Below are positions 5,017 through 42,179 of a DNA stretch of 61,513 nt, piece after piece. How positions within the stretch are numbered: the first letter of the stretch is position 1; every line of letters starts with the position of its first letter. Source of the DNA: Candidatus Puniceispirillum sp. (GTDB lineage: Bacteria; Pseudomonadota; Alphaproteobacteria; Puniceispirillales; Puniceispirillaceae); NCBI GenBank assembly GCA_016778895.1, contig JADHOR010000010.1, forward strand, positions 1 to 61,513, given 5' to 3'. The notes beneath the pieces were generated by a model. The model saw nothing but the letters and a program-made list of their open reading frames with translations, was not told the origin of the DNA and searched no databases. Both the position numbers and the translations under genes were made by a program.

Positions 5017-6000
5017 TTATTGATTTGCTACGAGCTTTTCCATAATTGGGGTCATCGTCTCGTACATCACATTTTGAGCCTTAACAGCGGTTGCCGCATC
5101 AATGTAGAAAGCGCCAAGATTATTCTTCTTCATGAAGCTTTTAAAGCCTTTGATACCCGCGACATGTTCAATGGCAGCACCAACTTTTTCTTTAACTTCA
5201 TCAGAAACTCCTTTTGGAGCAAAAAGGCAGAACAGACCGGTAAAGTCAGCCCCTTTCATCCCTTGCTCTGCAAAAGTTGGCAGATCAGGCATGGTTGGGT
5301 CGCGCTCTGCGCCAGCGGTTGCCAATGGACGAATTGTATCCTCAAAACCTGCAATGGTGTTATTACCACCAAAAACTGCCTCAACTGATTGAGAAACAAT
5401 TGCGGCACGCGCTTTTGATCCACCTTTAAATGGAACCATCTTGTGAGGGATTCCGTATGTATCAAAGAATGTCGTACCGATGCCCGAATGCATGGTAGTT
5501 GCGCCAGATGTACCCCAAGTAATAGTTTTGCCTGAAGCTTTTGCATTAGCAATGAACTCAGCCATAGTTTTTGATGGGCTTGAGGTGTGCACCTGCATTG
5601 AAGTTACCAGCTGAGACATACAGCCCAGGTTAACCCAATCGTCTTTCACGCTGTAGGGCTTATCTTTTCCCTTGGCCAATTCACCAACAATAAAGGTGCC
5701 GATGTTGATCATATAAAGTGTGTGACCGTCTGCTTTTTCACCAAGAACTTGTTTTGCACCTTTTTGTCCAGATGCGCCTGGCACGTTGACGATGTAGGCA
5801 GGCTGCCCACCCATGCTTTTAGCTTCATGCAGGTATGATGCAAAGCCACGTGATGTGGTATCAGTTCCGCCACCAGCGGAGAAACCAACAACGATTTTTA
5901 CTGGCTTTGATGGGTAAGAACCGTGCCCTCCTGCAATTGCCGAACCAGAGGCGAGCGTTAACGCCGCTGCGCTAAGGGCGACTGTTTTCAAAATTCTCAT
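5017..6000 (-). CDS. tctC: Tripartite tricarboxylate transporter, periplasmic binding protein TctC
   Basis: A 327-residue binding protein of the TctC/Bug family. A signal peptide (MRIL..., cleavage likely after AIA near residue 23) is followed by YPSKPVKIVVGFSAGGGTDT, the ligand-loop start typical of the family. Later come VPGASGQKGAKQ and ITWGTSGATTMHSG. It binds a carboxylate and delivers it to TctAB. CGGAGGAATAA precedes the ATG, a very strong ribosome site. It is first in the operon and followed by a hairpin. Ligand unknown; the neighbouring TPP enzyme would fit a 2-oxo or hydroxy acid, but that is speculation. Confidence 0.92.
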   Translation of the reverse strand: MRILKTVALSAAALTLASGSAIAGGHGSYPSKPVKIVVGFSAGGGTDTTSRGFASYLHEAKSMGGQPAYIVNVPGASGQKGAKQVLGEKADGHTLYMINIGTFIVGELAKGKDKPYSVKDDWVNLGCMSQLVTSMQVHTSSPSKTMAEFIANAKASGKTITWGTSGATTMHSGIGTTFFDTYGIPHKMVPFKGGSKARAAIVSQSVEAVFGGNNTIAGFEDTIRPLATAGAERDPTMPDLPTFAEQGMKGADFTGLFCLFAPKGVSDEVKEKVGAAIEHVAGIKGFKSFMKKNNLGAFYIDAATAVKAQNVMYETMTPIMEKLVANQ

Positions 6001-13579: not shown

Positions 13580-13586
13580 TTGAAGT

Positions 13587-14066
13587 TTACACCCCTGTCA
13601 AAGACCCGCGTGGCAGAAACACTTCCAACACGACGGTGAATAAAAGCCACATACCTCCAGACGCCCCGAAAGCGATCAACAAATGCATTAGAATCGCACT
13701 CCAGCCACCCAATACGGTTAGAAGGATAAAGCAAAACAAAATATTACCAATTAGCATTCCTAAATAGGGAAGGGCCGCCAGATAAAGTGCAAAGATTGTG
13801 AAAACAGCGATAACATTTCGCCAATATAAAATAAATTCAACCATGGTCTTTCTCGGCGCTGCCTCAATCTTTTCCTTTGGCATGCCAATTGACTGCAACA
13901 AGTAGACCACACTCAATAAACCAAGAATAATGACGATGAGACGAGGCCAAGCTGCAGGTGACAAAACGCCGTAGTCAGGCTCACGAATTTCAAAGGTGGC
14001 AAGCATCAACCCGGCACTCATCATAATAAGGCACAATGCTACCAAGCTATCTCGATTTAGCGACAT
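13587..14066 (-). CDS. tctB: Second tripartite transporter, small membrane subunit TctB
   Basis: A 159-residue protein with four hydrophobic segments. The N-terminal helix LVALCLIMMSAGLMLATFEI is followed by the loop DYGVLSPAAWPRLIVIILGL, which matches the TctB pattern. The last segment is MWLLFTVVLEVFLPRG. No strong ribosome site precedes the ATG, so it may depend on readthrough or coupling after the hairpin upstream. It lies between tctC and tctA. Confidence 0.85.
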   Translation of the reverse strand: MSLNRDSLVALCLIMMSAGLMLATFEIREPDYGVLSPAAWPRLIVIILGLLSVVYLLQSIGMPKEKIEAAPRKTMVEFILYWRNVIAVFTIFALYLAALPYLGMLIGNILFCFILLTVLGGWSAILMHLLIAFGASGGMWLLFTVVLEVFLPRGSLTGV

Positions 14067-14103
14067 CTGAAGACCACGTTATTAGAAGGGTTAATAAAAG
14101 CCT

Positions 14104-14132
14104 TTGGCTGGCAACGTTTGGTCGCCAGCCAA
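14104..14132 (-). terminator. Intercistronic hairpin between second tctC and tctB
   Basis: Perfect 9-base arms TTGGCTGGC / GCCAGCCAA with an 11-base loop. It lies after the tctC stop and before tctB, followed on the minus strand by a T-rich stretch. It parallels the hairpin at 4970-4994 in the first operon and probably limits expression of the membrane subunits relative to the binding protein. Confidence 0.65.
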
Positions 14133-14171
14133 CAAATTTTTACAGATCAATTGCAACGGCAGTTAATCTGA

Positions 14172-15152
14172 TTATTTTTTATACATGCCAATCTCAATAG
14201 CAACGGCTTCGTAAGCGTTATACAACTCTTGAGAATAAGCGGTGAACTCTTCTGGGCCCTGGTAACGCAGTCCAGTGCCCTTAGCCGCCATAGCTTTTTG
14301 CAAGCTTGGGTTATCAACAGCTTGCTTGATAATGCCAGCCCACATATCGATTATCTCTTTTGGCGTGCCTTTTGGCGCCACAACTCCGCGCTCAAGTGCA
14401 AAGCTCATATTAATACCGCGCTCTTTAAGAGTTGGGGTATTCGGCAGTTGAGGATCACGGTCGTCATTAGCTATTGCCAAAGCCTTTATAGTTCCTGCTT
14501 CCAAATGCTTCTTGCCTGAGGCGACGTTTACAGCCCCTAGCGTGATCGCACCGGATAACAAAGCATTCATCCGTTCAGCAGTGCCATCATAAGGAACGAG
14601 CTTGAGGTTCACGCCAGTAGCTTTTTGCAAAAGCAACCAAATGAAGTGCGATGTCGAGCCAAATGTTGCCCCTGCTGTGACTTGTCCTGGGTTGGCCTTG
14701 GCGTATGCTACCATCTCCTCAATTGAGTTGAAGGGAGCATCAGCAGCAGCACCGATGATGTCAGGCGTAATAGTTACGTTTGCAACCTTGTCAAAGCCGT
14801 CATAGTGAAAATCAATCCTTCCATTCAAAAAGCTGGTGATGGCTGATTGGTGGATCGCAAATAAGGTACAGCCATCCGGCTTTGCCTTGGCAGCCTGCTT
14901 GGCGCCTTTGTTGCCGCCCTGACCCGGTACGGTGACAACTTTGAGGTTGTAGGGCGTATCCATTTCACTGATTGTTTTTTCAACCAATGCATACAGGACC
15001 TGTGTGCCGCCACCTGCTTTCCATGGAACGATCAGCTGCGCAGTATCACATGGCAGTTTTGGAACCGAATGGGATCCTGCCTGTGCAACGGACGTTGCCA
15101 ATATCAGGCTGGCAGCGGCGGCGCCGAGAATTGAAAGTCTTGATTTTAGCAT
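14172..15152 (-). CDS. tctC: Second tripartite transporter, periplasmic binding protein TctC
   Basis: A 326-residue Bug/TctC-type binding protein. The signal peptide ends near residue 25 (SVAQA). The mature start holds LIVPWKAGGGTQVLYALVEK, with VPGQGGNKGAKQAAKAKPDG and GATFGSTSHFIWLLLQ as ligand-site loops. GGGAG lies 10 bases before the ATG. It heads a tctCBA operon and diverges from the aspartate-dehydrogenase-like gene 189 bases away. The substrate is a carboxylate of unknown identity; proximity to galD suggests a di- or tricarboxylic acid. Confidence 0.9.
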   Translation of the reverse strand: MLKSRLSILGAAAASLILATSVAQAGSHSVPKLPCDTAQLIVPWKAGGGTQVLYALVEKTISEMDTPYNLKVVTVPGQGGNKGAKQAAKAKPDGCTLFAIHQSAITSFLNGRIDFHYDGFDKVANVTITPDIIGAAADAPFNSIEEMVAYAKANPGQVTAGATFGSTSHFIWLLLQKATGVNLKLVPYDGTAERMNALLSGAITLGAVNVASGKKHLEAGTIKALAIANDDRDPQLPNTPTLKERGINMSFALERGVVAPKGTPKEIIDMWAGIIKQAVDNPSLQKAMAAKGTGLRYQGPEEFTAYSQELYNAYEAVAIEIGMYKK

Positions 15153-23644: not shown

Positions 23645-24901
23645 TTAGTCTGGCTGTTGAAAAATGGCGCGATCAGAAATTAATTTGTCAATCTCATTAT
23701 CTTGAAATCCGGCTTCGGCAAGCAGGCTGCGACTATGCTGGCCAAGCGTGGGCGCCGGAAACCGCAGGCGGCTAAGGTTATCCTGCATGATAGGTAAGGG
23801 CTGGTGCATTGCCACATCGCTGCCCGAATTATCCTCAGCCGCAACATAAATGCCGCGTTCGATAAAATGCGGATCTGCGGCATTGTCTGCAATGTTATTC
23901 ACTGGGGCTGCGGTGATGCCCTCGGACTCAAAAATTGTCATAACCTCTTGCCGGCTGCGTTTTGCAATCCAGCCACCAACGATTTTATCGATTACGGCCT
24001 GATGTTTAACCCGCGCCGCATTTGTGGAAAAGCGCGGATCTTCAATCATTTCTCCAACTCCAACGGCCGTGAATAGCCGTTTGGCGGTCGATTGAATAGA
24101 GGCTGAAATAGCAATGAAATGATTATCTGATGTTTGATAGATATTTCGTGGGCTTGCCGTGTTCGAGCCATTGCCAACGCGTTGTTTCACTGCACCAGTA
24201 ACGGCATAATCAAACGCATCAGGTCCAATGACCGATACCATAGAGTCAAGTAATGCAAGATCAATAACCTGCCCAAGACCAGTTTTCTGGCGGCTTTGCA
24301 GCGCCATCATAATCCCGTTTGAACCATAAAGGCCGGATACCATATCCGCCAGTGCTACCGGCGGTAATAGCGGCCCACCGCCAACTTCACCAGTGCGGCT
24401 GGCAAATCCCGACATTGCTTCGATCATCGTGCCAAAGCCAGGTCGGTGGCTGTAGGGGCCGGTCTGACCAAATCCTGATACACGTAAAATGATTAAACCC
24501 GGATTGCGTTGATGTAGCTTTGCTGGCGCCAACCCCATCGATTCCAAGGTTCCCGTTCGAAAACTTTCGATTAGAACATCAGCCCGGTCAATCAGCCGCG
24601 TTAAAATGCCGATCGATTGATCATGCCGGAAATCCAAAGCGAGACTTTTTTTATTGCGGCAATAGACCGACCAAAATGTCTGGATTCCATCCTGCTGCCA
24701 AGCACGAAGCGGGTCACCTGCGGTTAGGGGCTCGATTTTGGTGACGTCAGCGCCCGCATCGGCAAGTTGAAGTGACGTCATATTACCAGCAACAAGGCGC
24801 GATAGATCAACCACGCGCAAACCATGAAGGGGCCCGGTGCTCGTTGGTGAAAATCGCACTTTTTTCCATGGTTGCCGACCGGCAGCTTTGGGTTGTTCCA
24901 T
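23645..24901 (-). CDS. CaiB/BaiF family CoA-transferase
   Basis: A 418-residue class III CoA-transferase of full length. It shows GLRVVDLSRLVAGNMTSLQL, ADVTKIEPLTAGDPLRAW, NKKSLALDFRHD, VSGFGQTGPYSHRPGF, and the catalytic Asp (about 186) in VALADMVSGLYGSNG. AAGG lies 10 bases before the ATG. It is 49 bases downstream of the SLC13 transporter on the same strand, so import of a carboxylate and its activation to a CoA thioester may be coupled. The acid itself cannot be named. Confidence 0.9.
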   Translation of the reverse strand: MEQPKAAGRQPWKKVRFSPTSTGPLHGLRVVDLSRLVAGNMTSLQLADAGADVTKIEPLTAGDPLRAWQQDGIQTFWSVYCRNKKSLALDFRHDQSIGILTRLIDRADVLIESFRTGTLESMGLAPAKLHQRNPGLIILRVSGFGQTGPYSHRPGFGTMIEAMSGFASRTGEVGGGPLLPPVALADMVSGLYGSNGIMMALQSRQKTGLGQVIDLALLDSMVSVIGPDAFDYAVTGAVKQRVGNGSNTASPRNIYQTSDNHFIAISASIQSTAKRLFTAVGVGEMIEDPRFSTNAARVKHQAVIDKIVGGWIAKRSRQEVMTIFESEGITAAPVNNIADNAADPHFIERGIYVAAEDNSGSDVAMHQPLPIMQDNLSRLRFPAPTLGQHSRSLLAEAGFQDNEIDKLISDRAIFQQPD

Positions 24902-24950
24902 GCTGTCTAAACCTTCCCGTGTGGCGGGGCGCGATAACTAATTTTTATAA

Positions 24951-26795
24951 CTACAACCCGTAATACCAGGGCACAAAGGCCGAATAAACCAGCCAGATTA
25001 GGATCACCAGCGGAAACCCGACTTTGAAAAAATCTTTGAAATGGTAACTGCCCGGTCCCATCACCAGCAAGCTAGTCTGATAGGCAAAAGGGGTGGCAAA
25101 GGCGCAATTGGCCGCAAAGACAATGGTGATTGCAAAAATGCGGGGATCAACCCCGATCTCGGCACCAATATGAAGACCAATAGGCGCAAATAAAACGGCA
25201 CAGGTTTTGGTGCTGATAATGTTTGACATCAGTGCGACAAGCAGGAAAAACGAACTAAGGACAATGGTTGGACTTGCGGTTCCGGTAACCGACAAGATCA
25301 GGTTGGCAAGATAGGTCGCGGCGCCGGTTGCCTCCATCGCAACGCCAAGCGCAAGAGCTGCCGCGATGGTCGTTATGACCTTATGATCGAGCGCACGCGC
25401 GGCCTGATGCAGGGTAATGACGTTTGTCACCACCATCGCCAAGGCGCCAAAGAAAGATGATATAACAATTGGCACGAGGCCAAATGCCGCCGACAGAACT
25501 ACCGCCATAAAAATGCAAATTGATACATTTGCTGCCCTAAGGTTGGGTAACTCTTCAACTGAAAATTCGACCAGAACAACATCAAGATCCTCGCGCAACC
25601 CACGCAAGGTTTCGGCGTCGCATTTGACCAGTAAAAGATCGCCAGCGGATAATTTTGCCTGTCCCATTCGACTGCGGATCATATGGGCGTGATGTTGTAT
25701 GCCCAGAACCTGACAATTATGCCGATATTCAAATCCAGTGCGGCCAATGGTGGAATCCACCAGCGATGATGATGGCGTGACCATCATCTCGACAATAATC
25801 TGTTCAGATTTTTTGTGACTGGTTGGGTTGCGCCGATAACCCTCGGCAGGTGTAAGGCCATAACCCGACTCCATCAGTTTCGTTAGGTCTTCGCGCGTTG
25901 CTGACAGCGCGATATTGTCGCCATGCCTCAATTTAAGTCCAGTAAAAGGTGGTAAAATGGTTTTACCAAGACGATTGATCATGCGAATATTTATCTCAGG
26001 TAATTCCTGAAACATCCGAACCCCAAGCGATTGGCCAATTAGTTTTGAGTCTTTGTCGATCGAGATTTCTGCCATGAAATGCTGATCAAGACGTTCCCGC
26101 ATCCGATGACTAAGGCTGGTACGGTGCGGCAAAAATTTTGGCGCAATTAGCATCACATAGGCAAGGCCAGTACCGGCGAGAAGTAATCCGGGAAGGGAGA
26201 ACTCAAAAAAGCTAAAACCTTTCAATCCAGCCTCGATCAGGGCGTTTGATACCAGCAAATTTGTGCCGGATCCAACCAACGTTGTCATGCCACCAACCAC
26301 CGCAACGAAACTCAGTGGCATCAATAATTTTGACGCTGGCACATGAAATCTTTGGGCAATACCTTGCATGATGGGGATGAAGATAATGACCACAGGAATA
26401 TTGTTTAAAAAAGCACTTATGAATAGCACTGTAATCAAGGAAATTAACGTAGCTATCCATAATTTACCCATGCTGAGGCTAAGCACATGGCGTGAGAAAA
26501 TCTCCAGAATACCGGTTTTGACAACACCTTGCCCAACAACGAGCAAGGCCAAAACGGTTAGCATCGCTGGATTCGCAAAGCCTGCTAATATTTTGCTCGT
26601 GGGAAGTTGATTAACACCATTTGCATCAATGATCGGCGAGAAGTAAAAGAACACCAATAGGATCAAAATTACCCCAAGGGCGGTGACTTCCATTGGTATG
26701 GCCTCACTTGCATAGCAAAATAACGCACCAACGATCAGCCCGAAAAGGAACAGCATTTCAACAGACATGCCAGCATTTTCGATCAAGATGTTCAT
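24951..26795 (-). CDS. SLC13/DASS-family anion transporter with two RCK_C (TrkA-C) domains
   Basis: A 614-residue inner-membrane transporter. The first half of the membrane domain (FLNNIPVVIIFIPIMQGIAQ, GSGTNLLVSNALIEAG) carries the SNT-type motif. A cytoplasmic insertion at about residues 240-420 holds two TrkA-C repeats (DSKLIGQSLGVRMFQELPEI and DSTIGRTGFEYRHNCQVLGI). The second half includes ALALGVAMEATGAATYLANL. Relatives (YfbS-type) import sulfate, sulfonates, dicarboxylates or citrate. AAGG lies 11 bases before the ATG. The CoA-transferase gene that follows favours an organic-anion substrate. Confidence 0.87.
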   Translation of the reverse strand: MNILIENAGMSVEMLFLFGLIVGALFCYASEAIPMEVTALGVILILLVFFYFSPIIDANGVNQLPTSKILAGFANPAMLTVLALLVVGQGVVKTGILEIFSRHVLSLSMGKLWIATLISLITVLFISAFLNNIPVVIIFIPIMQGIAQRFHVPASKLLMPLSFVAVVGGMTTLVGSGTNLLVSNALIEAGLKGFSFFEFSLPGLLLAGTGLAYVMLIAPKFLPHRTSLSHRMRERLDQHFMAEISIDKDSKLIGQSLGVRMFQELPEINIRMINRLGKTILPPFTGLKLRHGDNIALSATREDLTKLMESGYGLTPAEGYRRNPTSHKKSEQIIVEMMVTPSSSLVDSTIGRTGFEYRHNCQVLGIQHHAHMIRSRMGQAKLSAGDLLLVKCDAETLRGLREDLDVVLVEFSVEELPNLRAANVSICIFMAVVLSAAFGLVPIVISSFFGALAMVVTNVITLHQAARALDHKVITTIAAALALGVAMEATGAATYLANLILSVTGTASPTIVLSSFFLLVALMSNIISTKTCAVLFAPIGLHIGAEIGVDPRIFAITIVFAANCAFATPFAYQTSLLVMGPGSYHFKDFFKVGFPLVILIWLVYSAFVPWYYGL

Positions 26796-31435: not shown

Positions 31436-33079
31436 TTATTTCTTTGCAGGAAGGCTAGTTTCAGGATCCAGCTTTGTTTCAGGCTTGAGATTTTCTTGGG
31501 TCTGGCCAGCTGAAATACGGCCGTTTTCCAGATAATCACCAGTGGCAGCACGCTTGCCGGCTTGGTCCCATATCTGGTGCCATGCGCCAAGTGAATAGCC
31601 GTGCCATGGCATTTTCACATTTACTGGCGGCAATCCCAATTCGTCCCAGATGTCTTTCGCGCGCTCCATATATTCCTTGCTTGGCAGGGCTAGCGGTGGC
31701 ATCGGTGATTTCATTGTAGCATCAATCAGGACGCTGGAATCTTCCTCGCCATCATGTTCGCGCTTGGGCCCATGACCTTGGCCGCGATGCAAAAGGGTTT
31801 GCATATCCTCTGACGGGTTGGTGCGATATGACATTGCCCAGAACAGGGCATCGGCATTGTCAACATCAATATCTTCATTTACGGCAATACAGATTTTGCT
31901 GCAATCCCCTTTGAAAAATGCGGCGCTGTAGAGAGCGCGCCATATTTCGGTGCGGGGCATATTGGCGTCACAGGTGATAACAGTGACACGAAGCAGGCCG
32001 GTCAATGGTTCGTGAAGTGATACTTTCTTCACGCCCTTGATGTTGTTTTCGTCACGCAGGTGGCGCAGGAATAACGGTTCATAGGCGACCCGTTTGATCA
32101 CGCTCGACTCGCTTGGTGCAACTTGCGAGATGTAGGAGGGAACGACCGCCTTTTTGCGGCGGGTAATCGTGGTGATACGCATTGGCATATTATATTCTTC
32201 CAGCGCGATGTGCCCGTGTGATTCGCCGAACGGGCCTTCGGGCTCAACCTTGGTCGTGTCGATAAAACCCTCAATAACAATCTCGGCTTCGGCGGGGACA
32301 ACTAGATCGACGCTTTTTGCCCTGGTCACATTAATTGGCGTACCGGCAAGTCCGCCAGCAACGGTAAATTCATCAACCCCCAGCGGTAGTTTCTGCGGTC
32401 CCATAAAAGCCACATATGGCGGGCAGCCAAGGACAATTGCTACCGGCATTTCGGTAATGCCCATCTGCTGGCATTTCTGATAATGCTGGTAACCGCCCGC
32501 CCCGCCAACCCTCGTTGCCATTCTGACGACCAGCCGGTCAGGTGCTTTCAGGGCGCAGCGATAGGTGCCCATATTCTGGACACCGGTTTCTGGGTCTTTG
32601 GTAATGACATTGCCAGCGCTCAATGTTGGCGCACTGTCAAAGCCGGGGGTCGACACTGGGATGGGAAGCGCATCAAGGCCATGCCCTGGCTGGCTTAGGC
32701 TATCACCATCTTCGATGATCTCATGACACGGGGCCTCATTAACAAATTGCGGGTCAATCGGGTTTGAAATCGCATTGTCCCATTTGGCCTGAATCGCCTC
32801 GACCGAGCTGCCCATGCCAACGCTGTAGATGCTGCGATTAGCGGCCAGACCACCCACCAGGACCGGTATGTCGAACTTGCGGCCTTTGCCATCAACGACA
32901 TTGGTAAACAGGAACGCCTTGCGATCTTCTTCTTTCATGCCACCAATAAATTGCCATCTTACCAATGCGTGCATTTCGCTGTCTTTGTCGATTTGACGGT
33001 CAACCTCAATGAGGAGGTTGCGGTCTTTCAATGCGGCAATATGCTGCTGAAGATCATTATAGGCTGGTTTTGTGGTCAT
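31436..33079 (-). CDS. UbiD-family prenylated-FMN-dependent decarboxylase
   Basis: About 547 residues. UbiD-family enzymes reversibly decarboxylate alpha,beta-unsaturated or aromatic acids using prenyl-FMN made by UbiX. The catalytic triad is visible: Arg174 in GTYRCALK, and Glu281 and Glu286 in EPEGPFGESHGH. The glycine-rich GVQNMGTYR and IVLGCPPYVAFMG blocks are also present. I chose the ATG at 33079 with GGAG 6 bases upstream; a TTG 12 bases further up is less likely. No ubiX is adjacent, so the cofactor must come from elsewhere. It lies 19 bases after the PrpD-like gene, indicating one operon. It is longer than ubiquinone UbiD (about 490), pointing to a catabolic role. Confidence 0.87.
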   Translation of the reverse strand: MTTKPAYNDLQQHIAALKDRNLLIEVDRQIDKDSEMHALVRWQFIGGMKEEDRKAFLFTNVVDGKGRKFDIPVLVGGLAANRSIYSVGMGSSVEAIQAKWDNAISNPIDPQFVNEAPCHEIIEDGDSLSQPGHGLDALPIPVSTPGFDSAPTLSAGNVITKDPETGVQNMGTYRCALKAPDRLVVRMATRVGGAGGYQHYQKCQQMGITEMPVAIVLGCPPYVAFMGPQKLPLGVDEFTVAGGLAGTPINVTRAKSVDLVVPAEAEIVIEGFIDTTKVEPEGPFGESHGHIALEEYNMPMRITTITRRKKAVVPSYISQVAPSESSVIKRVAYEPLFLRHLRDENNIKGVKKVSLHEPLTGLLRVTVITCDANMPRTEIWRALYSAAFFKGDCSKICIAVNEDIDVDNADALFWAMSYRTNPSEDMQTLLHRGQGHGPKREHDGEEDSSVLIDATMKSPMPPLALPSKEYMERAKDIWDELGLPPVNVKMPWHGYSLGAWHQIWDQAGKRAATGDYLENGRISAGQTQENLKPETKLDPETSLPAKK

Positions 33080-33098
33080 TTTGCTCTCCAAAGCAGGG

Positions 33099-34571
33099 TT
33101 AGTTTGGCAAGTGATTGCCAGTTTCGCTATCGCGGCGGATTACGGCAGATGCGAGTATGCTGGCGACCTCGATGGTTTCCAGCTGCCATAACTTTTCTAA
33201 AAGCGCGTTGGTCGAAATGCTGCCCAGAATTGGCGTTGTTAGTTCAATGAATTTTGCGTTCAGTTCATTATCCGACAGCGGCAGGTCGGGGTCGCCTTTG
33301 CGAGTGGGTTGATAATGAGAAAATGTCCGGCCATCACGTGTGGTGATGGAGACATGCGCCGCCCGACGTGATGGAAATTGGGCGTCGATTTGCGGATCAA
33401 GGCTGACCTGAATATGCGGCAGCATCGCGCGAATAGCCGGATCACGCATCCGCTCTGCAGCAAAAGCCTCAATGCGGACACTGCCGTAATGCACTGCGTG
33501 CGCCACCACATATTGCATTGAAAACTTGCCCTCTTGTGGGGTTTGCGGGTCAGCTCGATCAGTAATCGAAACCGCCGGACCGTAGCTTGCGATGGCGATA
33601 TCTGCAATGTCACTGGCAATCATCTGCTCGGCATTCATCACCGCCAACACCCCATCAATAGCGGCAAAAGTATGACCACAACAGCCATGGTTCTTAAATG
33701 TAATCATCTCGATATTATAGGTATCGCCAAGGCCTGATGTGGCTTTATCCCAATCTGCTGTGCCGCTCATCGCGGCGCCCATTCCAGCTGGTCCTTCAAG
33801 CACATCAAGCGCCCCCGTGACCCCTTTGCCGGCAGCTATCGCAGCCATAGCACCGGTTTCGGCAGCATGGCCGGCGTGCAGGGGCTTGCTCATCCCGTCA
33901 GAACGAAATGCCTGCTGCAATCCGGCGGCAAGTGTTGCCGAGGTTGCCAAAGCATGGGCTGTCTGATCTCGGTTCAGGCCAAGCAGCACAGCCGTTGCGG
34001 CGGCGGCACCAAAGGTGGCGATAGTCGCGGTTGTGTGCCAATAGCGATAATGATCACGGCCCATTGCAGCACTGATGCGGCTACTAACTTCATAACCCGC
34101 AATAACGCTTCGCAGCAAGGCATCGCCGGATCGCTTGTGTTTTTGCGCAACGGCAAGCGCGGCAGCAATTGTCGCGCAGCCCGGATGTAGCCCACCATCG
34201 CGGAAAATATCGTCAAACTCGGAGGTATGAGCGCTAGCGCCATTCAAAAAGGCTGCAGTCTTGACTGTCGAATGATCGCCGGTCGGAAAGATGGTTGCGT
34301 GCTGAGGATCGCCACTGTCAAGCAAGGCAGCGCGTAGCATCGGATTGGGTTCTTGAACAGCACCCGGATACATCGCTGCAAACCAGTCGATCACGGCGCG
34401 TTTGGCGTGATGGATCGTGCGTGGTGGAAGTGTGCGGGTTTGTTCCTGCACAATATAATCGGCGATTTTTTCTATAAGAACCATGTCGGCACCAAGGGGG
34501 GTTTCTGGTCGCGAAGTGACCCGTATTGTTTCAACAGAACGGCAGTGCTGCAAGGTCAAAATAGCTTTCAT
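33099..34571 (-). CDS. MmgE/PrpD family protein
   Basis: 490 residues. The all-helical half has NGASAHTSEFDDIF (family signature), GCATIAAALAVAQKHKRSGD and GYEVSSRISAAMG. ITFKNHGCCGHTFAAIDGV corresponds to the K-H-x-x-x-x-x-H active-site region, and the C-terminal half is mixed alpha/beta. Family members are 2-methylcitrate dehydratases, cis-aconitate decarboxylases and iminodisuccinate epimerases. The N-terminus is uncertain: the ATG at 34571 has no good ribosome site, and one at 34484 gives the usual family start. It diverges from the six-gene CoA operon and is followed by ubiD, so a tricarboxylic acid or similar substrate is plausible. Confidence 0.85.
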   Translation of the reverse strand: MKAILTLQHCRSVETIRVTSRPETPLGADMVLIEKIADYIVQEQTRTLPPRTIHHAKRAVIDWFAAMYPGAVQEPNPMLRAALLDSGDPQHATIFPTGDHSTVKTAAFLNGASAHTSEFDDIFRDGGLHPGCATIAAALAVAQKHKRSGDALLRSVIAGYEVSSRISAAMGRDHYRYWHTTATIATFGAAAATAVLLGLNRDQTAHALATSATLAAGLQQAFRSDGMSKPLHAGHAAETGAMAAIAAGKGVTGALDVLEGPAGMGAAMSGTADWDKATSGLGDTYNIEMITFKNHGCCGHTFAAIDGVLAVMNAEQMIASDIADIAIASYGPAVSITDRADPQTPQEGKFSMQYVVAHAVHYGSVRIEAFAAERMRDPAIRAMLPHIQVSLDPQIDAQFPSRRAAHVSITTRDGRTFSHYQPTRKGDPDLPLSDNELNAKFIELTTPILGSISTNALLEKLWQLETIEVASILASAVIRRDSETGNHLPN

Positions 34572-34736
34572 TTAAATAAATCTTCAATGTCACAAGGGTA
34601 ATTAAATCTGCTGCATGACAACTGCGGCTTTTTACCTTATTCTCATTTGTAAATATCCGAGATTTTCTCCATATTTCTTTTTTTACAAAGCGTTATGCTG
34701 ATGTTCCAACCATTAATTCACAGAGACAAAACCCTG

Positions 34737-35528
34737 ATGACAAGCTCACCACCCCTGATTGATGTCGCCCGTGAAGGCAATGTGGCGACGGTTACATTAA
34801 ACCGGCCTGAAAAACGAAATGCGATCAATGATGCGATGCGAAATGCCCTGATCGATGCACTTAACGAGGTGAATGCTGATGACGCGGTTGGGGCAGTTGT
34901 GCTGACTGGGGCGGGGCGTGGGTTTTGCGCTGGCGGGGATATTGGCGGAATGCTTGAGCGGTTGGAGGCACCGCGTGGCAGGGTTGGATTTAATGGCTGG
35001 AAGCGGCAAAAACAGACGCACCGTCTGATTGCCACGATCTATCATATGGATAAGCCGGTCATTGCGGCGGTGAATGGTGCCGCTTCGGGTCTGGGCTGTG
35101 ATCTTGCGCTGGCGTGTGATTTCATTGTTGCAGGGCCGGCGGCAAGCTTTTCGATGACCTATCTGAAACGCGGCCTAATCCCGGATGGCGGCGGGTTATA
35201 TTTCCTGCCGCGCCGTGTTGGTACAACGCGTGCCAAAGAGTTGATTTTCAGTGCCCGCACTGTCGTTGCTGACGAGGCTCACATGATTGGTCTTGCCGAT
35301 CGGCTGGCCGCAACCGAAACGCTGCTTGATGAGGCGCGGGAATGGGCACAAAGTCTGTGCTTTGGACCACCAAGCGCGGTTGCCTTGTCAAAATCAATCG
35401 TCAATCGGTCGGTTGATTTAACGCTTGAAACGGTGTTTGCGCTTGGTTCTGAGGCGCAGTCGATCTGCTACGCCAGTGATGAGCATCATGCCTCGGTAAC
35501 AGCTTTTCTTGACAAAAAGAGCCGCTGA
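34737..35528 (+). CDS. Crotonase-fold enoyl-CoA hydratase/isomerase
   Basis: About 263 residues. The oxyanion-hole segments are FCAGGDIGGM and NGAASGLGCDLALACD. At the two hydratase glutamates of rat crotonase (144 and 164) I read Asp122 and a Tyr in SMTYLKRGLIPDGGG. The Asp150 in IPDGG matches the catalytic Asp of isomerase-type members such as PaaG. So an isomerase, or a hydratase with altered chemistry, is as likely as a standard hydratase. I use the ATG at 34737 over the one at 34695; neither has a strong ribosome site. It is first in a six-gene operon, with the next gene 1 base away. Confidence 0.82.
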   Translation: MTSSPPLIDVAREGNVATVTLNRPEKRNAINDAMRNALIDALNEVNADDAVGAVVLTGAGRGFCAGGDIGGMLERLEAPRGRVGFNGWKRQKQTHRLIATIYHMDKPVIAAVNGAASGLGCDLALACDFIVAGPAASFSMTYLKRGLIPDGGGLYFLPRRVGTTRAKELIFSARTVVADEAHMIGLADRLAATETLLDEAREWAQSLCFGPPSAVALSKSIVNRSVDLTLETVFALGSEAQSICYASDEHHASVTAFLDKKSR

Positions 35529-35529
35529 C

Positions 35530-36735
35530 ATGACCGGTCCAATGGCAGATGCGTTTGATGGGTTGCTTGTTGTGGAGTTTGCCCAAGGGGTCGCTGCGCC
35601 CTATTGCGGGCTGCTATTAGGCCGCAATGGCGCCAATGTTATCAAGGTCGAGCCGCAGGGTAGTGGTGATTGGTGCCGCTCACTTGGCCTTCGTAAAGGT
35701 GATTTTTCGGCTGAATCAATTGTCTTGAACCGCGGTAAGAAAAGCCTTGCCCTTGATATGAAAACCCCTTATGGCCGTGCTGCCGCATTCAAGCTCGCGG
35801 CAAAGGCTGATGTCATTATTGAAAATTACCGGCCTAATGTAACAAAGAGGCTGGGCATTGACTATGCCGCTGTGGCGGCAGTTAATCCGAACGTCGTCTA
35901 TGCGTCGGTTACCGGATTTGGCCCGACTGGCCCGAAAAGCCATATGCCGGCAACTGATACCGTGATGCAAGGTTATACCGGCCTGATGAGCATTAACCGG
36001 GATCAGGCTGGATTGCCGCGTCGGATTAATATGCTGGCGATTGATTATTCAACCGGCCTTTACCTCAGTCAGGCGGTATTTGCTGGGTTGTACCGGCGCG
36101 CAACGACCGGGCACGGTTGTCATATTCAAACAAGTCTTTTGGAAAGTGCGATGGCCTTTCAAGAGGCACGTCTTGTTGCGCAAAAATTTGAAGGCTCGGC
36201 CGTCCAGCCGGTTGGTGCGCCAGTTGGTACCTTTGCGACAGCGGACGGGTATCTTAGTTTAAATGCGCGCCGAGACCCGCATTTTGCTGCCCTCTGCCAG
36301 CATCTGGGTACAGATGAATGGCTGGATGATCCGCGGTTTAATTCGGCCGAGGCCCGGCTTGATAACGCCCTAGAAATCAATATTCTGGTCGCGCCTCATA
36401 TCATGCAAAAACCAACCGCCCATTGGGTAGATGTGTTGTCAAAAGCTGATATATTGAACGCGCCGGTACATAACTACGATGATCTGTTCGTTGATCCTCA
36501 AATTGCTGAAATAGAGGCAATTGGCTGGGTTGAAATTGGCGAGTTTGGTAAATTGCCAGCGGCACGCATCGCTGGGCTGACCCCAGCATCGTCAAGCAAC
36601 CAAGTGGCAATGACACCGCCGCGCCTCGGCCAGGGGGGGCGTGCGGCATTATTGTTGGCTGGATTTAGCGATGATGAAATCAACCAGCTTGCCTTCAGTG
36701 GAGCGGCTGTTTTTAATGATGATGAGGATGCCTAG
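35530..36735 (+). CDS. CaiB/BaiF family CoA-transferase
   Basis: About 401 residues. Class III CoA-transferase blocks are FDGLLVVEFAQGVAAPYCGL, ANVIKVEPQGSGDWCR, NRGKKSLALDMKTPYG and SVTGFGPTGPKS. The catalytic Asp172 is in LAIDYSTGLYLSQAV, and the C-terminal swap domain is complete. The ATG at 35530 is one base after the preceding stop, and the next gene starts directly after this stop, so the genes are translationally coupled. It probably activates the pathway acid with CoA from a product or intermediate acyl-CoA. Confidence 0.9.
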   Translation: MTGPMADAFDGLLVVEFAQGVAAPYCGLLLGRNGANVIKVEPQGSGDWCRSLGLRKGDFSAESIVLNRGKKSLALDMKTPYGRAAAFKLAAKADVIIENYRPNVTKRLGIDYAAVAAVNPNVVYASVTGFGPTGPKSHMPATDTVMQGYTGLMSINRDQAGLPRRINMLAIDYSTGLYLSQAVFAGLYRRATTGHGCHIQTSLLESAMAFQEARLVAQKFEGSAVQPVGAPVGTFATADGYLSLNARRDPHFAALCQHLGTDEWLDDPRFNSAEARLDNALEINILVAPHIMQKPTAHWVDVLSKADILNAPVHNYDDLFVDPQIAEIEAIGWVEIGEFGKLPAARIAGLTPASSSNQVAMTPPRLGQGGRAALLLAGFSDDEINQLAFSGAAVFNDDEDA

Positions 36736-37905
36736 ATGGATTTTGAACTCACTCAAGATCAGCAGATTTTCTATGATACGGTTCGACGCTTTGCCGCTAA
36801 AGAGCTAGCGAATGGAGCAGTTGAGCGAGCCAATAGCGACAGTTATCCATGGGATATTGCTGCCCGTTTTGCTGAGGTGGGGCTTCTAGGCATTACCATT
36901 CCCGAAGCTAAGGGCGGTATTGGTGGCAGTTTAAGCGATGCCGTTTTGGCCATTCAAGCGGTTGCTGAATCTTGTCCGCGCAGTGCTGATGTGGTGCAGG
37001 CTGGCAATTTCGGTGCAATCCGCACATTCGCTGAATATGCCAGTAATGATCAATTGGCGCGGTTCCTGCCTGGCCTGCTAGCAGGGAAAGGTGTGATGTC
37101 GGTTGGCATGTCCGAGCCGGATGCAGGATCGTCTGTTACCGAACTGAAAACATCTGCGACGCCTGACGGGGATGATTTTCTGATCAATGGCAGCAAGGTT
37201 TTCGGGACGAATAGCGCAGAGGCAGACTTTGTTCTGGTCTATTTACGGTTTGGTCCGGGCACCGACGGTATTGGCTCGGCGATCATCGAAAAGGGAACTC
37301 CAGGTTTTTCGGTTGGCCCGGGCTATCGCTATATGAATGGTGAGTCATGGTCACCACTTTATTTTGACAATTGCCGGATACCAAAGGCGAATATCCTGCT
37401 TGGTCCGGGCGGGTTTAAAAAACAGATTTCTGGCTTTAACATTGAAAGGCTTGGTAACGCGGCGCGGGCAGTTGCAGTTGGGCGCAAAGCCTTTAGCGAG
37501 GCCCGTGACCATGCCAAAACGCGCCAGCAGTTTGGCCGTGACATTTGTGAATTTCAGGGGATTCAGTGGAAATTTGCCGAAATGGAAATGCGGCTTGAGG
37601 CGGCCCAGCTATTGCTGATGCGGGCAGTAACAAGGGCTGATAATGGTCTACCATCAGCGCATGATTCGGCTCTGGCAAAACTGGCGTGTAACGAGGCTGG
37701 TTTCTTTGCCGCAAACGAGGCTTTGCAGGTGATGGGTGCGCTGGGCTTTAGTGATGATAGCATCGTGCAATATTGCATGCGCCGGACGCGCGGCTGGATG
37801 ATTGCAGGCGGATCAACTGAAATTTTGAAAAACCGGATTGCTGAGGGTATTTTTGAACGGCGTTTCTCGCAGCGTCCGCCGAGGCCGCCAAAAGTTGATG
37901 GCTGA
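36736..37905 (+). CDS. Acyl-CoA dehydrogenase
   Basis: 389 residues. The N-terminal helical domain is followed by the FAD motif VGMSEPDAGSSVTELKTSA and FLINGSKVFGTNS. The C-terminal domain has TRQQFGRDICEFQGIQWKFA and AGGSTEILKNRIAEGIF. The usual medium-chain catalytic Glu of the YEGT motif is Gly here, as in isovaleryl/glutaryl-type members that place the base elsewhere. It should introduce a 2,3-double bond into an acyl-CoA, passing electrons to ETF. GAGG lies 8 bases before the ATG, which abuts the previous stop. Third gene of the operon. Confidence 0.9.
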   Translation: MDFELTQDQQIFYDTVRRFAAKELANGAVERANSDSYPWDIAARFAEVGLLGITIPEAKGGIGGSLSDAVLAIQAVAESCPRSADVVQAGNFGAIRTFAEYASNDQLARFLPGLLAGKGVMSVGMSEPDAGSSVTELKTSATPDGDDFLINGSKVFGTNSAEADFVLVYLRFGPGTDGIGSAIIEKGTPGFSVGPGYRYMNGESWSPLYFDNCRIPKANILLGPGGFKKQISGFNIERLGNAARAVAVGRKAFSEARDHAKTRQQFGRDICEFQGIQWKFAEMEMRLEAAQLLLMRAVTRADNGLPSAHDSALAKLACNEAGFFAANEALQVMGALGFSDDSIVQYCMRRTRGWMIAGGSTEILKNRIAEGIFERRFSQRPPRPPKVDG

Positions 37906-37907
37906 TA

Positions 37908-40160
37908 ATGGGCGATATTATGAGTGATTTTACGAATGGGTTTGGCGATGATCTTGGGCGGGCGCTTGTTGCGCCAAAATCAATTGCGCTTATCGGTGTG
38001 TCAGGCGACGCAACAAAACTGTCGGCGCGGCCATTACAGTTCTGTCAGCAGCATGGGTTTGCCGGTAAAATCTTTATTGTTAACCCACGCCGTGACCTGG
38101 TGCTAGGCATCAAGGCCTATCCGTCGGTCTCGGCAATTCCTGAAAAGGTAGATCATGCCTACATTCTGCTTGGCACTGAATTGGTTGAGGCGGCGCTGGA
38201 TGATTGTATCGCCGCTGGTGTCAGGATTGTCTCGGTTCTGGCCGACGGGTTTGCCGAGGCTGGCAGCCAAGGCCAAGCACGGCAGGCGCGGCTTGTGGCA
38301 AAGGCGACGGCTGCCAAGATTATGCTGATCGGGCCAAATTCTATGGGTGTGGTAAACACCAATAATGGTTTTATTTGCACCACCAATGCCGCCTTTAAAG
38401 TCGACAAATTGCCGCGTGGGCGACTTGCAGTTCTATCGCATAGTGGCAGTCTGATTGGCACGCTTGTGTCACGGGGGCAGGCGCGGAATATTGGTTTTGC
38501 CGCGCTAGTCTCGCTTGGTAATGAGGCGCAGTCCTGTGTTGGCAGGCTTGGCCTGACCTTGGTTGAAGATGACAATATTGACGGGTTTGTGTTGTTTCTG
38601 GAAACGATGCGAAATCCGCAGATTTTTGCCGAATTTGCCGCTGCAGCGACACGGCTTGGCAAGCCGGTAGTGGCATATATGCTTGGCAAATCAGCCGATG
38701 GTCAGGCCCTGTCGGTTTCGCATACTGGCGCCATGACTGGTGAGGCGGCGGCGGTTCGGGCGTTTCTGGCTCAGCATTCGGTGGCCGAGGTTCACCAGTT
38801 TGATGCGCTGTTTGAAGCGCCTGCATTATTGATGAAAAAGCCCCGATTGGGACTGCGTCCACGCCGCGCAACCGTTGTGACGACAACTGGCGGCGGTGGC
38901 GCGATGCTGGTTGATCAGCTCAGCCTCCGCGGCGTTAAGCTGGCTGGATTAAGCCCGGCCTCACGGGCGTTTTTCCGTTCGCAGAATATTCCAAGCGGTA
39001 CTGGCAAACTTGTCGATGTTACGCTTGCCGGCGCCCAGTATGATATTATGAAAAAGGCCATCACCCAATTGATCAATGATCCCGAAACCGGGATTGTTGT
39101 TGTGGCAATTGGCTCGTCGGCGCAATTTCATCCCGAACTGGCAGTAAAGCCGATCATTGATGCGGTTGCCGAAAATCCGAAAGCGGCACCGGTGGCAGCC
39201 TTTCCATTGCCGGTTGCAGTCAAATCAATAATGATGCTGGAGGCGGCCGGAATTCCGTGCTTTGGCAGTGTCGAGAGCTGTGCCGACAGCATTGGGCTAT
39301 TGCTGTGTGATGATGCCGGATCCGATCTGGATGATGGTGACCAATCACATCAAATTGGCATGAAGGCGGATGACCATCTGCCCCTAAGGCAGCAGCTAGA
39401 TACGATTATTGAGGAGACCGAAATTGGTGCGTCCGGGGGGCTGTTGAATGAGGTTGATGGCTATCAGCTTTTTACCGCGCTTGGTATCGAGGGGCCGCGC
39501 CAGCTGTTTTTGCCTGCCCGTGACTTTAAAGCCGGGGTTACAAAGAATTCGGCTAAATCGGCGGCAATTGCAGCGGTAGCCGTTGCTGAAGCGGGGTTGG
39601 ACTTCCCGCTGGTTGCCAAGCTGGTCTCAGCCGATTTGCCGCATAAATCTGATTATGGAGCCGTGGTTCTCTCGATTGAGTCGGAGGCAGCGCTTGAGGC
39701 GGCAATTACCGAGATGCAGCGCGTGGTGAAAATTCATGCGCCAACGGCAACGATTGATGGGATACTGGTTCAAGAAATGGCCCTCGGGCTTGGCGAGGCG
39801 CTGGTTGGGTTGCGGCATGATAATCTGGTTGGGCCGGTCATCACAGTTGGCGCAGGCGGTATTTTTGCCGAGATTTACCAAGATGTGAGCATACGTCCGG
39901 CACCGGTTAGCCTGGCGACCGCACATAGGATGATTGCCGAGGTCAAGGGCTTTGCCACCCTTCGTGGCTATCGCGGAAAACCCAAAGGTGATCTTGATGC
40001 ATTAGCCCTGCTAATAACAAACCTGTCAAGACTAGCAGATGTTGACCGGATTGCCGAGGCCGAGATTAATCCAGTGCTGGTGCGATCTGAGGGTGTTTTG
40101 ATGCTTGACGCGCTGATCCGGATAGGTCCGAGAGATAGTGTCGACGGAGCTAATATATGA
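37908..40160 (+). CDS. ADP-forming acyl-CoA synthetase (acetate--CoA ligase type), fused alpha-beta
   Basis: 750 residues. The N-terminal CoA-binding domain (KSIALIGVSGDATKLSARPL) leads to two succinyl-CoA-synthetase-like domains with the phosphohistidine loop SVSHTGAMTGEAA. A C-terminal ATP-grasp domain follows (FPLVAKLVSADLPHKSDYGA, ILVQEMALGLGEALVGLRHD, ending AEINPVLV). It makes an acyl-CoA from acid, CoA and ATP, or runs in reverse to yield ATP. An ATG at 37920 is an alternative start. It is fourth in the operon, 2 bases after the dehydrogenase, and its stop overlaps the next start by 4 bases. Reverse action on a terminal acyl-CoA would conserve energy. Confidence 0.88.
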   Translation: MGDIMSDFTNGFGDDLGRALVAPKSIALIGVSGDATKLSARPLQFCQQHGFAGKIFIVNPRRDLVLGIKAYPSVSAIPEKVDHAYILLGTELVEAALDDCIAAGVRIVSVLADGFAEAGSQGQARQARLVAKATAAKIMLIGPNSMGVVNTNNGFICTTNAAFKVDKLPRGRLAVLSHSGSLIGTLVSRGQARNIGFAALVSLGNEAQSCVGRLGLTLVEDDNIDGFVLFLETMRNPQIFAEFAAAATRLGKPVVAYMLGKSADGQALSVSHTGAMTGEAAAVRAFLAQHSVAEVHQFDALFEAPALLMKKPRLGLRPRRATVVTTTGGGGAMLVDQLSLRGVKLAGLSPASRAFFRSQNIPSGTGKLVDVTLAGAQYDIMKKAITQLINDPETGIVVVAIGSSAQFHPELAVKPIIDAVAENPKAAPVAAFPLPVAVKSIMMLEAAGIPCFGSVESCADSIGLLLCDDAGSDLDDGDQSHQIGMKADDHLPLRQQLDTIIEETEIGASGGLLNEVDGYQLFTALGIEGPRQLFLPARDFKAGVTKNSAKSAAIAAVAVAEAGLDFPLVAKLVSADLPHKSDYGAVVLSIESEAALEAAITEMQRVVKIHAPTATIDGILVQEMALGLGEALVGLRHDNLVGPVITVGAGGIFAEIYQDVSIRPAPVSLATAHRMIAEVKGFATLRGYRGKPKGDLDALALLITNLSRLADVDRIAEAEINPVLVRSEGVLMLDALIRIGPRDSVDGANI

Positions 40161-41380
40161 TTGCTGATGCCATGCCGCTTGCGGGGCTGCGTGTGCTTGA
40201 TTTTGGCCACACGGTTATGGGGCCAACCGCCGGTTTAATCCTTGCTGATCTAGGCGCTGAGGTGATCCGGATTGAGCCTGTTGCAGGTGATCCGACACGG
40301 CGGTTAAAAGGGTTTGGCACTGGTTATTTTCCCTTTTTTAACCGGAATAAGCAAAGCGTAGCAATTAATCTGAAAGATCCGCGTGGCCTGCGGATTGTGA
40401 AACTGCTTTTGGCTGAAAGTGACGTGTTGATTGAAAATTTTGCTCCCGGAACGATGACGCGGCTGGGGCTGGATTACGGACAGATAGCCGCAGATTATCC
40501 GCGTCTGATCTATCTTTCGTTAAAGGGGTTTTTGCCGGGCCACTACGAAAACCGGGTTGCGCTTGATGAGGTTGTGCAAATGATGAGTGGGCTTGCCTAT
40601 ATGACTGGGCCGCCCGGTCAGCCATTGCGCGCTGGTGCGTCGGTCGTCGATATTATGGGCGGTGCTTTCGGTGTTGTTGCGGTTCAGGCAGCAGTGATCG
40701 AACGGCAGAAAACTGGACGAGGGCAATTGGTTAGATCGGCGCTGTTTGAGAGCGCAATGTTCCTGATGGGGCAGCATCTTGCCTATGCCGCGCAGTCGGA
40801 TGAGCCGGTGCCGCCGATGCCAGCGCGGGTATCTGCATGGGCGATTTATGATCAATTCCGCACGAAGGATGATCATATGGTGTTTCTTGGCATTACCTCG
40901 GATAATCATTGGCAAAGATTTTGCCGTATTTTTGGCTGTGATGATCTGGGCACCGATGCAACGCTGGCCACCAATAATCAGCGTATCGAGGCGCGTCAGC
41001 GACTGTTGCCACAGCTGGCGACGCTGATTGCTGGTCTTGATCTAGCGGCATTGACCGAAAAGGTGGTTGCGGCTGACCTTCCCTTTGCACCGATCGCGCG
41101 GCCCGAAGCGCTGTTTGACGATCCGCATCTGAATGACGGTGGTTATCTTCTTGAAACCACCATGCCTAATGGTGAAAAAGGCAGGCTGCCAAACCTACCG
41201 ATAAGCCTTGACGGGCGTCTTGGCAAGCTGACGCGTAATCCGCCGGTCATTGGTGCGGATACCGGCCTATGTTTGGAAAGACTTGGGTTTTCAGCCACTC
41301 AGATCAATGAATTATATGCTGACGGTATCATTGGCCTTGCCGGTGATGCAAAAGCGTCAGAAACCAGCGGTAACCAGTGA
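40157..41380 (+). CDS. CaiB/BaiF family CoA-transferase
   Basis: 407 residues. Family blocks are PLAGLRVLDFGHTVMGPTAG, AEVIRIEPVAGDPTRR, FFNRNKQSVAINLKDPRG, LIYLSLKGFLPGHY, and the catalytic Asp165 in ASVVDIMGGAFGVV. GGAG lies 7 bases before the ATG, which overlaps the previous stop (ATGA). It is the second CoA-transferase of this operon and differs clearly from the one at 35.5 kb. The GFLPGHY block resembles members acting on succinate- or citramalate-type acids, but that is a weak hint. It probably handles a second acid or loads CoA back from the product. Confidence 0.9.
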   Translation: MIADAMPLAGLRVLDFGHTVMGPTAGLILADLGAEVIRIEPVAGDPTRRLKGFGTGYFPFFNRNKQSVAINLKDPRGLRIVKLLLAESDVLIENFAPGTMTRLGLDYGQIAADYPRLIYLSLKGFLPGHYENRVALDEVVQMMSGLAYMTGPPGQPLRAGASVVDIMGGAFGVVAVQAAVIERQKTGRGQLVRSALFESAMFLMGQHLAYAAQSDEPVPPMPARVSAWAIYDQFRTKDDHMVFLGITSDNHWQRFCRIFGCDDLGTDATLATNNQRIEARQRLLPQLATLIAGLDLAALTEKVVAADLPFAPIARPEALFDDPHLNDGGYLLETTMPNGEKGRLPNLPISLDGRLGKLTRNPPVIGADTGLCLERLGFSATQINELYADGIIGLAGDAKASETSGNQ

Positions 41381-41393
41381 AGGAGCAGAATCC

Positions 41394-42179
41394 ATGACGG
41401 ATGTAGCAGATTGGTGGCAAACCGATATTATTGATATGGCGCCGGGTCAAATTCGGCTTCGGGGGTTTCCGATTGAGGATTTGATCGGCAATATCGGCTT
41501 TGCTGAAATGGTCTGGCTGATGACCCGTGGCACGCGGCCTGATAAAGCGCAGGCGGCCTTGTTTGAGGCGGCGTTGGTGTCAGCCGTTGACCATGGTCCA
41601 CAAGCGCCCTCAATTGCTGCTGCGCGGATGGCGGTGAGCTGTGGCCTGTCGCTTAACAATGCGATGGCCAACGCGATCAATATGCTAGGCGATATTCATG
41701 GCGGGGCCGGTGAGCAGGCCATGCAATTTTTCCATGATGTCAAAGCGCAGGCGGCGGAGACACGCCTGCAAACGGCGATTGAAACTGTCTTTCAGGCGTA
41801 TAATCGTCTGGTTCCCGGATTTGGTCACCGCTTTCACAAGAACGCTGATCCGCGATCATTGCGGTTGATGAGTCTGGTCGAGGCGGCGGTTTCGGCAAAG
41901 GTCTGCGATGGTGGTTTTGCCGAAATTGCCCTCGGGGTTGAACATTTTCTGGCAAATTTAAAAGGCAAGCCAATTCCGATGAATGTTGATGGTGTGACCG
42001 CGGTAATTTATGCTGAGCTCGGGTTTGAGCCTGCATTGGCGCGCGGCCTTTTCTGCCTGTCAAGATCGGTTGGAGCACTTGCGCATGCGCATGAGCAGGC
42101 TGGCCGCAAAGAGCGGAATAAAGGCCCAACACCACCCCATTACCGCTGGACTTATGGTGGCGCGAACCCAATTAAATAG
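41394..42179 (+). CDS. Citryl-CoA lyase-like protein (citrate synthase superfamily)
   Basis: A 261-residue short citrate-synthase fold. All three catalytic residues are visible: His102 in LGDIHGGAGEQA, His145 in VPGFGHRFHKN and Asp199 in PMNVDGVTAV. The C-terminal LSRSVGALAHAHEQ block is also present. The N-terminal small region of full citrate synthases (about 430) is missing, as in citryl-CoA lyases. It should cleave or form a C-C bond between acetyl-CoA and a 2-oxo acid (oxaloacetate or pyruvate). AAGGAG precedes the ATG at 41394 by 8 bases, which decides this start over upstream ones that run inside the CoA-transferase gene. Last gene of the operon. Confidence 0.85.
   Translation: MTDVADWWQTDIIDMAPGQIRLRGFPIEDLIGNIGFAEMVWLMTRGTRPDKAQAALFEAALVSAVDHGPQAPSIAAARMAVSCGLSLNNAMANAINMLGDIHGGAGEQAMQFFHDVKAQAAETRLQTAIETVFQAYNRLVPGFGHRFHKNADPRSLRLMSLVEAAVSAKVCDGGFAEIALGVEHFLANLKGKPIPMNVDGVTAVIYAELGFEPALARGLFCLSRSVGALAHAHEQAGRKERNKGPTPPHYRWTYGGANPIK

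Follow-up and report, generated by a model that had tools for sequence, protein, structure and literature searches.

The itaconate cluster that Cupriavidus and Pseudomonas carry has been described (PMC12290011): its MmgE acts as an (S)-(R)-methylsuccinate isomerase (Msi) and its acyl-CoA dehydrogenase as a methylsuccinyl-C4-CoA dehydrogenase (Mcd), these being accompanied by Ict, Ich and Ccl. A form of tricarboxylate catabolism is tricarballylate utilisation by TcuABC, in which TcuA acts on the free acid, unlike the CoA chemistry considered below. A citryl-CoA synthetase/citryl-CoA lyase system, with a solved lyase structure (6hxp), belongs to Hydrogenobacter. In addition, TctCBA-CaiB-lyase operons occur in Rhodobacteraceae and SAR116 relatives; they are annotated only, and no functional description of them was found in the literature searched. 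That search, judged from paper listings and from passages of PMC11005374, PMC6689899 and PMC2864759 and not extending to subscription papers or preprints, gave no mention of a CaiB-lyase pair or of CoA esters of tricarballylate. Here we describe a six-gene operon and a divergent MmgE/PrpD gene of Candidatus Puniceispirillum sp. (GenBank:GCA_016778895.1, contig JADHOR010000010.1, positions 1 to 61,513; this whole stretch of 61,513 nt is referred to as the window). The six genes were designated A (crotonase), B (CaiB CoA-transferase), C (acyl-CoA dehydrogenase), D (ADP-forming acyl-CoA synthetase), E (second CaiB) and F (citrate-synthase-fold lyase).

The locus resembles the itaconate/methylsuccinate cluster in bringing together MmgE/PrpD, CaiB, acyl-CoA dehydrogenase and lyase, whereas it differs from that cluster (PMC12290011) in having a crotonase in place of the MaoC-type Ich and a citrate-synthase-fold lyase in place of the CitE-type Ccl, and in adding the ADP-forming synthetase and the second CaiB. 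It shares lyase fold and catalytic residues with the citryl-CoA synthetase/lyase system, but its CoA loading would probably be by a CaiB transferase and its setting is catabolic, not that of the reductive TCA cycle. The lyases of the TctCBA-CaiB-lyase operons are 59-68% identical to F and likewise adjoin a CaiB gene; however, that CaiB comes from another clade than E, and no core gene of at least 40% identity lies within 9 kb there. The best explanation, which we hold tentatively and at just short of an even chance, is a core acting on a branched succinate combined with a detachable CoA-transferase/lyase cassette acting on a citrate-like hydroxyacid.

Comparisons within the genus were made with a sample of 16 genomes, G000 (the host) to G015, many of which are incomplete (51-100%). 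Open reading frames (ORFs) together with Pfam and NCBIfam searches confirmed the six genes, their coordinates and families and, with the chosen starts, the gaps of -4 to +13 bases given in the initial annotation, all six ORFs lying on the plus strand. The check for the same gene order that had been proposed there found it in five other genomes of the genus, flanked by the same genes, so the arrangement is not due to chance. MmgE and C were both present in 12 of the 16 genomes (G000, G003-G011, G013 and G015) and both absent from the remaining four (G001, G002, G012 and G014), and D adjoined C in all 12; by this co-occurrence the divergent MmgE/PrpD gene, which the initial annotation did not include, is part of the operon's system. 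A and B, both intact in nine of the 12 core-bearing genomes, are less firmly linked than MmgE, C and D: A is shortened and B missing in G010, both are missing in G011, and in G008 the contig stops before them.

In six of the 12 core-bearing genomes, D is followed by the next gene with no E and F in between (G006, G008, G009, G010, G011 and G013), the DNA from D to the next gene being contiguous in each. G008 holds 27 C-terminal residues of F (89% identical) and G010 holds pieces of E, and because of these remnants, loss must have occurred at least in these two. No close F was found elsewhere in the six genomes, the best matches being 25-29% identical, the G008 remnant aside. E and F are a cassette separable from the core.

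Relatives of F outside the genus were collected by a wide scan with patterns from approximately the first 16 lyase residues, retaining the best 80 of 150 candidates, and the scan therefore favours close relatives; 76 named loci (L046-L121) were counted, with the genus members L042-L045 excluded. CaiB lay within 400 bases of F on the same strand in 76/76. TctA was located within 8 kb of F in 64 of them (58 at an identity of at least 50% within 9 kb) and a two-component system nearby in 52-54, whereas none had a relative of A, C, D or MmgE of at least 40% identity inside 9 kb; distant C- and A-like genes (29-30%) were noticed near the F relative of L107. In the Ruegeria locus, the response regulator was closest to TctD (190 bits, below the cut-off of 337). 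The combination of transferase, lyase and transporter without dehydrogenase implies that the substrate of F can come directly from an imported hydroxyacid.

In the CaiB tree, the transferases beside these 76 F relatives formed another clade than E, which grouped with full support (100/100) with transferases of Azospirillum, A. larrymoorei, Roseibium and G074; these adjoin F in Azospirillum, A. larrymoorei and G074 and lie 6.4 kb from F in Roseibium. The joining of the E clade with Ict carried a long-branch warning. Among solved structures, succinate-hydroxymethylglutarate CoA-transferases, which act on a citrate-like hydroxyacid, come closest to E, and both B and E passed the gathering score of Pfam CoA_transf_3 (320.8 and 356.9 bits, cut-off 23.3). 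For B, no close partner outside the genus was found.

F scored 404.9 bits on NCBIfam NF004864, 'citryl-CoA lyase' (cut-off 261), and 6hxp, a citryl-CoA lyase, comes closest to it among solved structures (E 3.7e-40). Numbered from ATG 41394, which gives 261 residues (the frame being open from TTG 41250), its His102, His145 and Asp199 are present as initially annotated and align with the catalytic residues of citrate synthase and 6hxp. F matches the citrate synthase profile only at positions 156-350, the large part of citrate synthase being absent, and retains the oxaloacetate-holding residues except the counterpart of citrate synthase Arg407.

For the core, the references for Msi and Mcd were a P. 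aeruginosa copy on a plasmid record and a Mesorhizobium copy. The window MmgE keeps all seven Msi residues (His88, Glu91, His102, Tyr148, His152, Lys202 and Lys266) named in PMC12290011. In an alignment, C and the two Mcd proteins share the helix column that carries a Glu (FNIER in C, NAER in Mcd), and all three lack Glu where many dehydrogenases show YEGT, C reading IAGGS there. This placing is that of isovaleryl-CoA dehydrogenase, the substrate of which is branched at the same carbon. Both the Glu placing common to Mcd and the linkage of C to a methylsuccinate-type isomerase support the chemistry considered for C, and by these residues and in its logic the core resembles the methylsuccinate route. 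The test of MmgE and C as orthologues of Msi and Mcd failed, identity to the P. aeruginosa proteins being only 34% and 31%, respectively; they are therefore analogues and not the same genes, and both are closer to another clade (39-50% for MmgE, 56-66% for C). Host contig C11 encodes another dehydrogenase (approximately 177810-179045, locus L184), which shares 73% identity with the Mesorhizobium Mcd and has no relatives of Ict, Msi, Ich or Ccl in the 20 kb examined; searches of the host genome with Mesorhizobium Ich and Ccl, run without a positive control, gave nothing at 1e-5. It was also noticed that genes read from their sequence as molybdenum-hydroxylase-like adjoin this dehydrogenase.

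Relatives of C outside the genus (56-66% identity) were examined in 12 of the 12 C-bearing loci of a class sample of 386 genomes, 384 of which lie outside the genus; 11 had a synthetase neighbour, 10 of these being of the D/AcsC type. In five plasmid loci selected for A, relatives of MmgE (39-50%) were adjacent to A relatives or one gene off; these plasmid loci were hand-picked from match lists, and several of the clusters add tripartite transporters, 3-hydroxyacyl-CoA dehydrogenases or a thiolase.

Inspection of A bore out the remark that it lacks both hydratase Glu: at the positions of the two catalytic residues in the crotonase alignment it has Asp and Tyr, with a further Asp in IPDGGG, and it thus failed the test for enoyl-CoA hydratase (crotonase). 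All eight close relatives aligned have Asp at the first position, no Glu at the second and Asp in [PS]DGGG, a pattern that fits isomerase-type crotonases better than hydratases. A is thus probably not a hydratase.

From the genes, families, residues, linkage and separability described above, we infer the following reactions and substrates, as well as the joining of core and cassette. MmgE would epimerise a C2-substituted succinate and D would load it with CoA using ATP, after which C would take two hydrogens next to the branch carbon to give an enoyl-CoA like mesaconyl-C4-CoA; A would probably shift the double bond or perform another non-hydratase step, and B may transfer CoA between acids. 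In the cassette, E would use another thioester as CoA donor for a citrate-like tertiary hydroxyacid, and F would split the resulting CoA ester into acetyl-CoA and a 2-oxoacid, which would be oxaloacetate if the acid is citrate.

Citrate itself is suggested by the transporter class, the TctD-like regulator, the family of F and the gene order F-E-TcuA-like-aconitase of A. larrymoorei, which would run from tricarballylate through cis-aconitate and citrate to citryl-CoA; against it stand the breadth of the tripartite transporter family and the replacement of the Arg407 counterpart in F. The flavoprotein that gives A. larrymoorei and Azospirillum their TcuA-like gene beside E-F scored 350.5 and 357.2 bits on the TcuA profile. 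In the host, TcuA (651.9 bits, cut-off 369) and TcuB (534.5 bits, cut-off 246.6) are encoded side by side on contig C49 (approximately 81205-83785, locus L188); neither is in the operon, as judged from ORFs and NCBIfam. Because the host thus holds this known CoA-free route with both proteins above curated cut-offs, tricarballylate, one of the substrates initially proposed, is weakened and was rejected as the favoured one; a CoA-dependent tricarballylate route in the host would be redundant, though not impossible. Near TcuA and TcuB, a D-2-hydroxyacid dehydrogenase and an AbrB-like protein were also observed.

Several observations weigh against a branched-succinate core joined to a citrate-cleaving cassette. 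In the class sample, C occurred in 14 genomes and F in 26, both being present in G000, G004, G074 and G329; outside the genus, the two coincided in only 2 of 384 genomes (C in 12, F in 24), which is no excess. They lie on one contig within 10 kb in G000, G004 and G074, and 10 kb apart in A. larrymoorei, and this closeness in two lineages beyond the genus is no more than suggestive. Among the 21 of 24 F-bearing loci outside the genus that were examined (those of G141, G170 and G422 being the others), CaiB lay within 400 bp on the same strand in only 13; of the remaining eight, L173 has CaiB farther off, L176 has no reference gene, and six (L167, L170, L171, L172, L174 and L175) are other clusters in which F stands without CaiB, with TRAP-type permeases and in some cases HPPD-like or TPP-enzyme-like genes. 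F may therefore have more than one substrate, and these six clusters perhaps belong to another pathway using an F-type lyase. AckA and Pta, the would-be acetate recyclers, are present in the Ruegeria locus but near F in just 3 of the 76 named loci, and acetate recycling was rejected as a general partner of the cassette. Furthermore, the Arg407 counterpart is not conserved, nine aligned F rows showing an invariant R-x-K-G-P stretch there; both TcuA-like scores fall under the cut-off of 369; and relatives of C, D and MmgE also cluster with hydroxyacyl-CoA dehydrogenases and thiolases, suggesting plain beta-oxidation in those organisms.

The initial annotation had read the six genes as one linear pathway, in which tricarballylate or aconitate would be loaded with CoA, dehydrogenated by C and hydrated to citryl-CoA, from which F would release acetyl-CoA and oxaloacetate. 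Such a pathway would account for the packing of six genes in an order kept in six genomes of the genus including the host, and it agrees with the citryl-CoA lyase family of F, with the tricarboxylate transporters near F relatives and with the TcuA-like enzyme and aconitase beside E-F in A. larrymoorei. We nevertheless consider it unlikely, since half of the 12 genomes that keep MmgE, C and D have an operon without E and F, and F elsewhere stands beside a CoA-transferase without the other genes; moreover, the hydration step is left without an assigned operon enzyme because A is not hydratase-like, the host has TcuA and TcuB, and tricarballylate, having no stereocentre, offers no task for MmgE as an epimerase. 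What stands of that proposal is CoA loading, dehydrogenation and an enzyme of the citryl-CoA lyase family; what falls is a single route obligatorily ending in the lyase. The losses of E and F without loss of C and D would suit a core that merely starts an ordinary beta-oxidation of dicarboxylic acids, finished by enzymes encoded elsewhere, with E and F as an unrelated passenger cassette. C-D relatives accompanied by 3-hydroxyacyl-CoA dehydrogenases in Martelella, A. larrymoorei, P. caribensis and Acinetobacter, in the last also by a thiolase, point in this direction, but the absolute MmgE-C linkage in the genus is not needed for plain beta-oxidation, the Glu of C is placed as in an enzyme that acts on a beta-branched acyl-CoA, and neither a thiolase nor a hydroxyacyl-CoA dehydrogenase was found among the genes of the window operon (ORF list and NCBIfam), so that this reading, too, appears rather improbable.

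A further reading has the operon degrade methylsuccinate or itaconate, F being a citramalyl-CoA lyase that yields pyruvate. In its favour, the operon matches the functional set of the cluster in PMC12290011 (MmgE isomerase, CaiB, dehydrogenase, a second CoA-ester enzyme and lyase). The low identity of C (31%) and MmgE (34%) to the P. aeruginosa proteins, the separate Mcd-like dehydrogenase of the host and the oxaloacetate-holding residues kept by F, the Arg407 counterpart apart, make this very unlikely, and with two enzymes replaced, the operon was rejected as a methylsuccinate/itaconate cluster proper. It is just as improbable that F, under a misleading citryl-CoA lyase name, works as a synthase or on an unrelated acyl-CoA. 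There is a precedent in Rv2498c, which was named CitE and shown not to cleave citryl-CoA (PMC6689899), and some F relatives are clustered without CaiB or a tricarboxylate transporter; however, the large part of citrate synthase is missing from F, the solved structure nearest to it is that of a citryl-CoA lyase, and the pairing with CaiB suits a lyase that requires a CoA ester.

Coordinates of the operon and adjoining features are collected below. The frame of A is already open from ATG 34695 and that of B from TTG 35509, the ATG at 35530 being the likely start of B.

Features of the operon and its divergent neighbours (positions in the window)
Feature	Coordinates	Strand	Basis
A, crotonase-fold protein, probable isomerase or other non-hydratase	34737..35528	+	ORF, Pfam/NCBIfam, alignment
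B, class III (CaiB/BaiF) CoA-transferase 1 (CaiB-1)	35530..36735	+	ORF, Pfam, tree
C, acyl-CoA dehydrogenase, core gene	36736..37905	+	NCBIfam, active-site alignment
D, ADP-forming acyl-CoA synthetase, core gene	37908..40160	+	Pfam/NCBIfam, gene neighbourhood
E, CaiB/BaiF CoA-transferase 2 (CaiB-2), cassette gene	40157..41380	+	Tree, gene neighbourhood
F, citryl-CoA-lyase-like, citrate synthase fold, cassette gene	41394..42179	+	NCBIfam, alignment, neighbourhood
MmgE/PrpD, divergent from A, core gene	33099..34571	-	Pfam, residue alignment, genus co-occurrence
UbiD-family decarboxylase, 7 bases behind MmgE, loosely linked	31436..33091	-	ORF, Pfam, genus neighbourhood
165-base region between divergent MmgE and A, putative site of both promoters	34572..34736	.	

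The UbiD gene adjoins MmgE in 9 of the 12 genus genomes having MmgE; it was rejected as a core gene, since G006 and G013 have it at other places, no copy was found in G011, and G001 and G014 have it without MmgE. Tautomycetin biosynthesis likewise pairs a PrpD-like with a UbiD-like enzyme. Elsewhere in the window, two gene sets (2817-6000 and 11939-15152) resemble tripartite tricarboxylate transporters (TTT; TctA/B/C), these names being based on sequence reading and a Ruegeria reference, as NCBIfam gave no family for the three proteins tested. A PrpF-family protein (10750-11820) scored 459.8 bits on 4-oxalomesaconate tautomerase (cut-off 440), and a 58% relative of it occurs near the core genes of G011; at 23648-26795, a third CaiB CoA-transferase gene comes directly after that of a DASS-type anion transporter. 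A second short citrate-synthase-like protein of the host (contig C21, approximately 33360-34130; L003 1426-2193) was considered as a second lyase and rejected, since it is 27% identical and two of the three catalytic residues, the first His and the Asp, are absent in the alignment. Similar matches of 25-28% in nine other genomes of the genus suggest that a citrate-synthase-like protein, possibly not a lyase, is conserved.

Beyond this operon, we regard it as possible rather than probable that a CaiB transferase and a free-standing citrate-synthase-fold lyase form a widespread, TTT-fed two-enzyme route for cleaving citrate or a citrate-like acid into acetyl-CoA plus an oxoacid, which in SAR116 was joined to a branched-succinate CoA pathway and lost in some lineages. 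If so, the CaiB-lyase route would be an undescribed counterpart of citrate lyase and ATP-citrate lyase, and a lyase named after carbon fixation would serve common tricarboxylate uptake and splitting in marine and soil bacteria. For branched dicarboxylates, the SAR116 operon would then be a second route, put together separately from the methylsuccinate cluster that was described in 2025.

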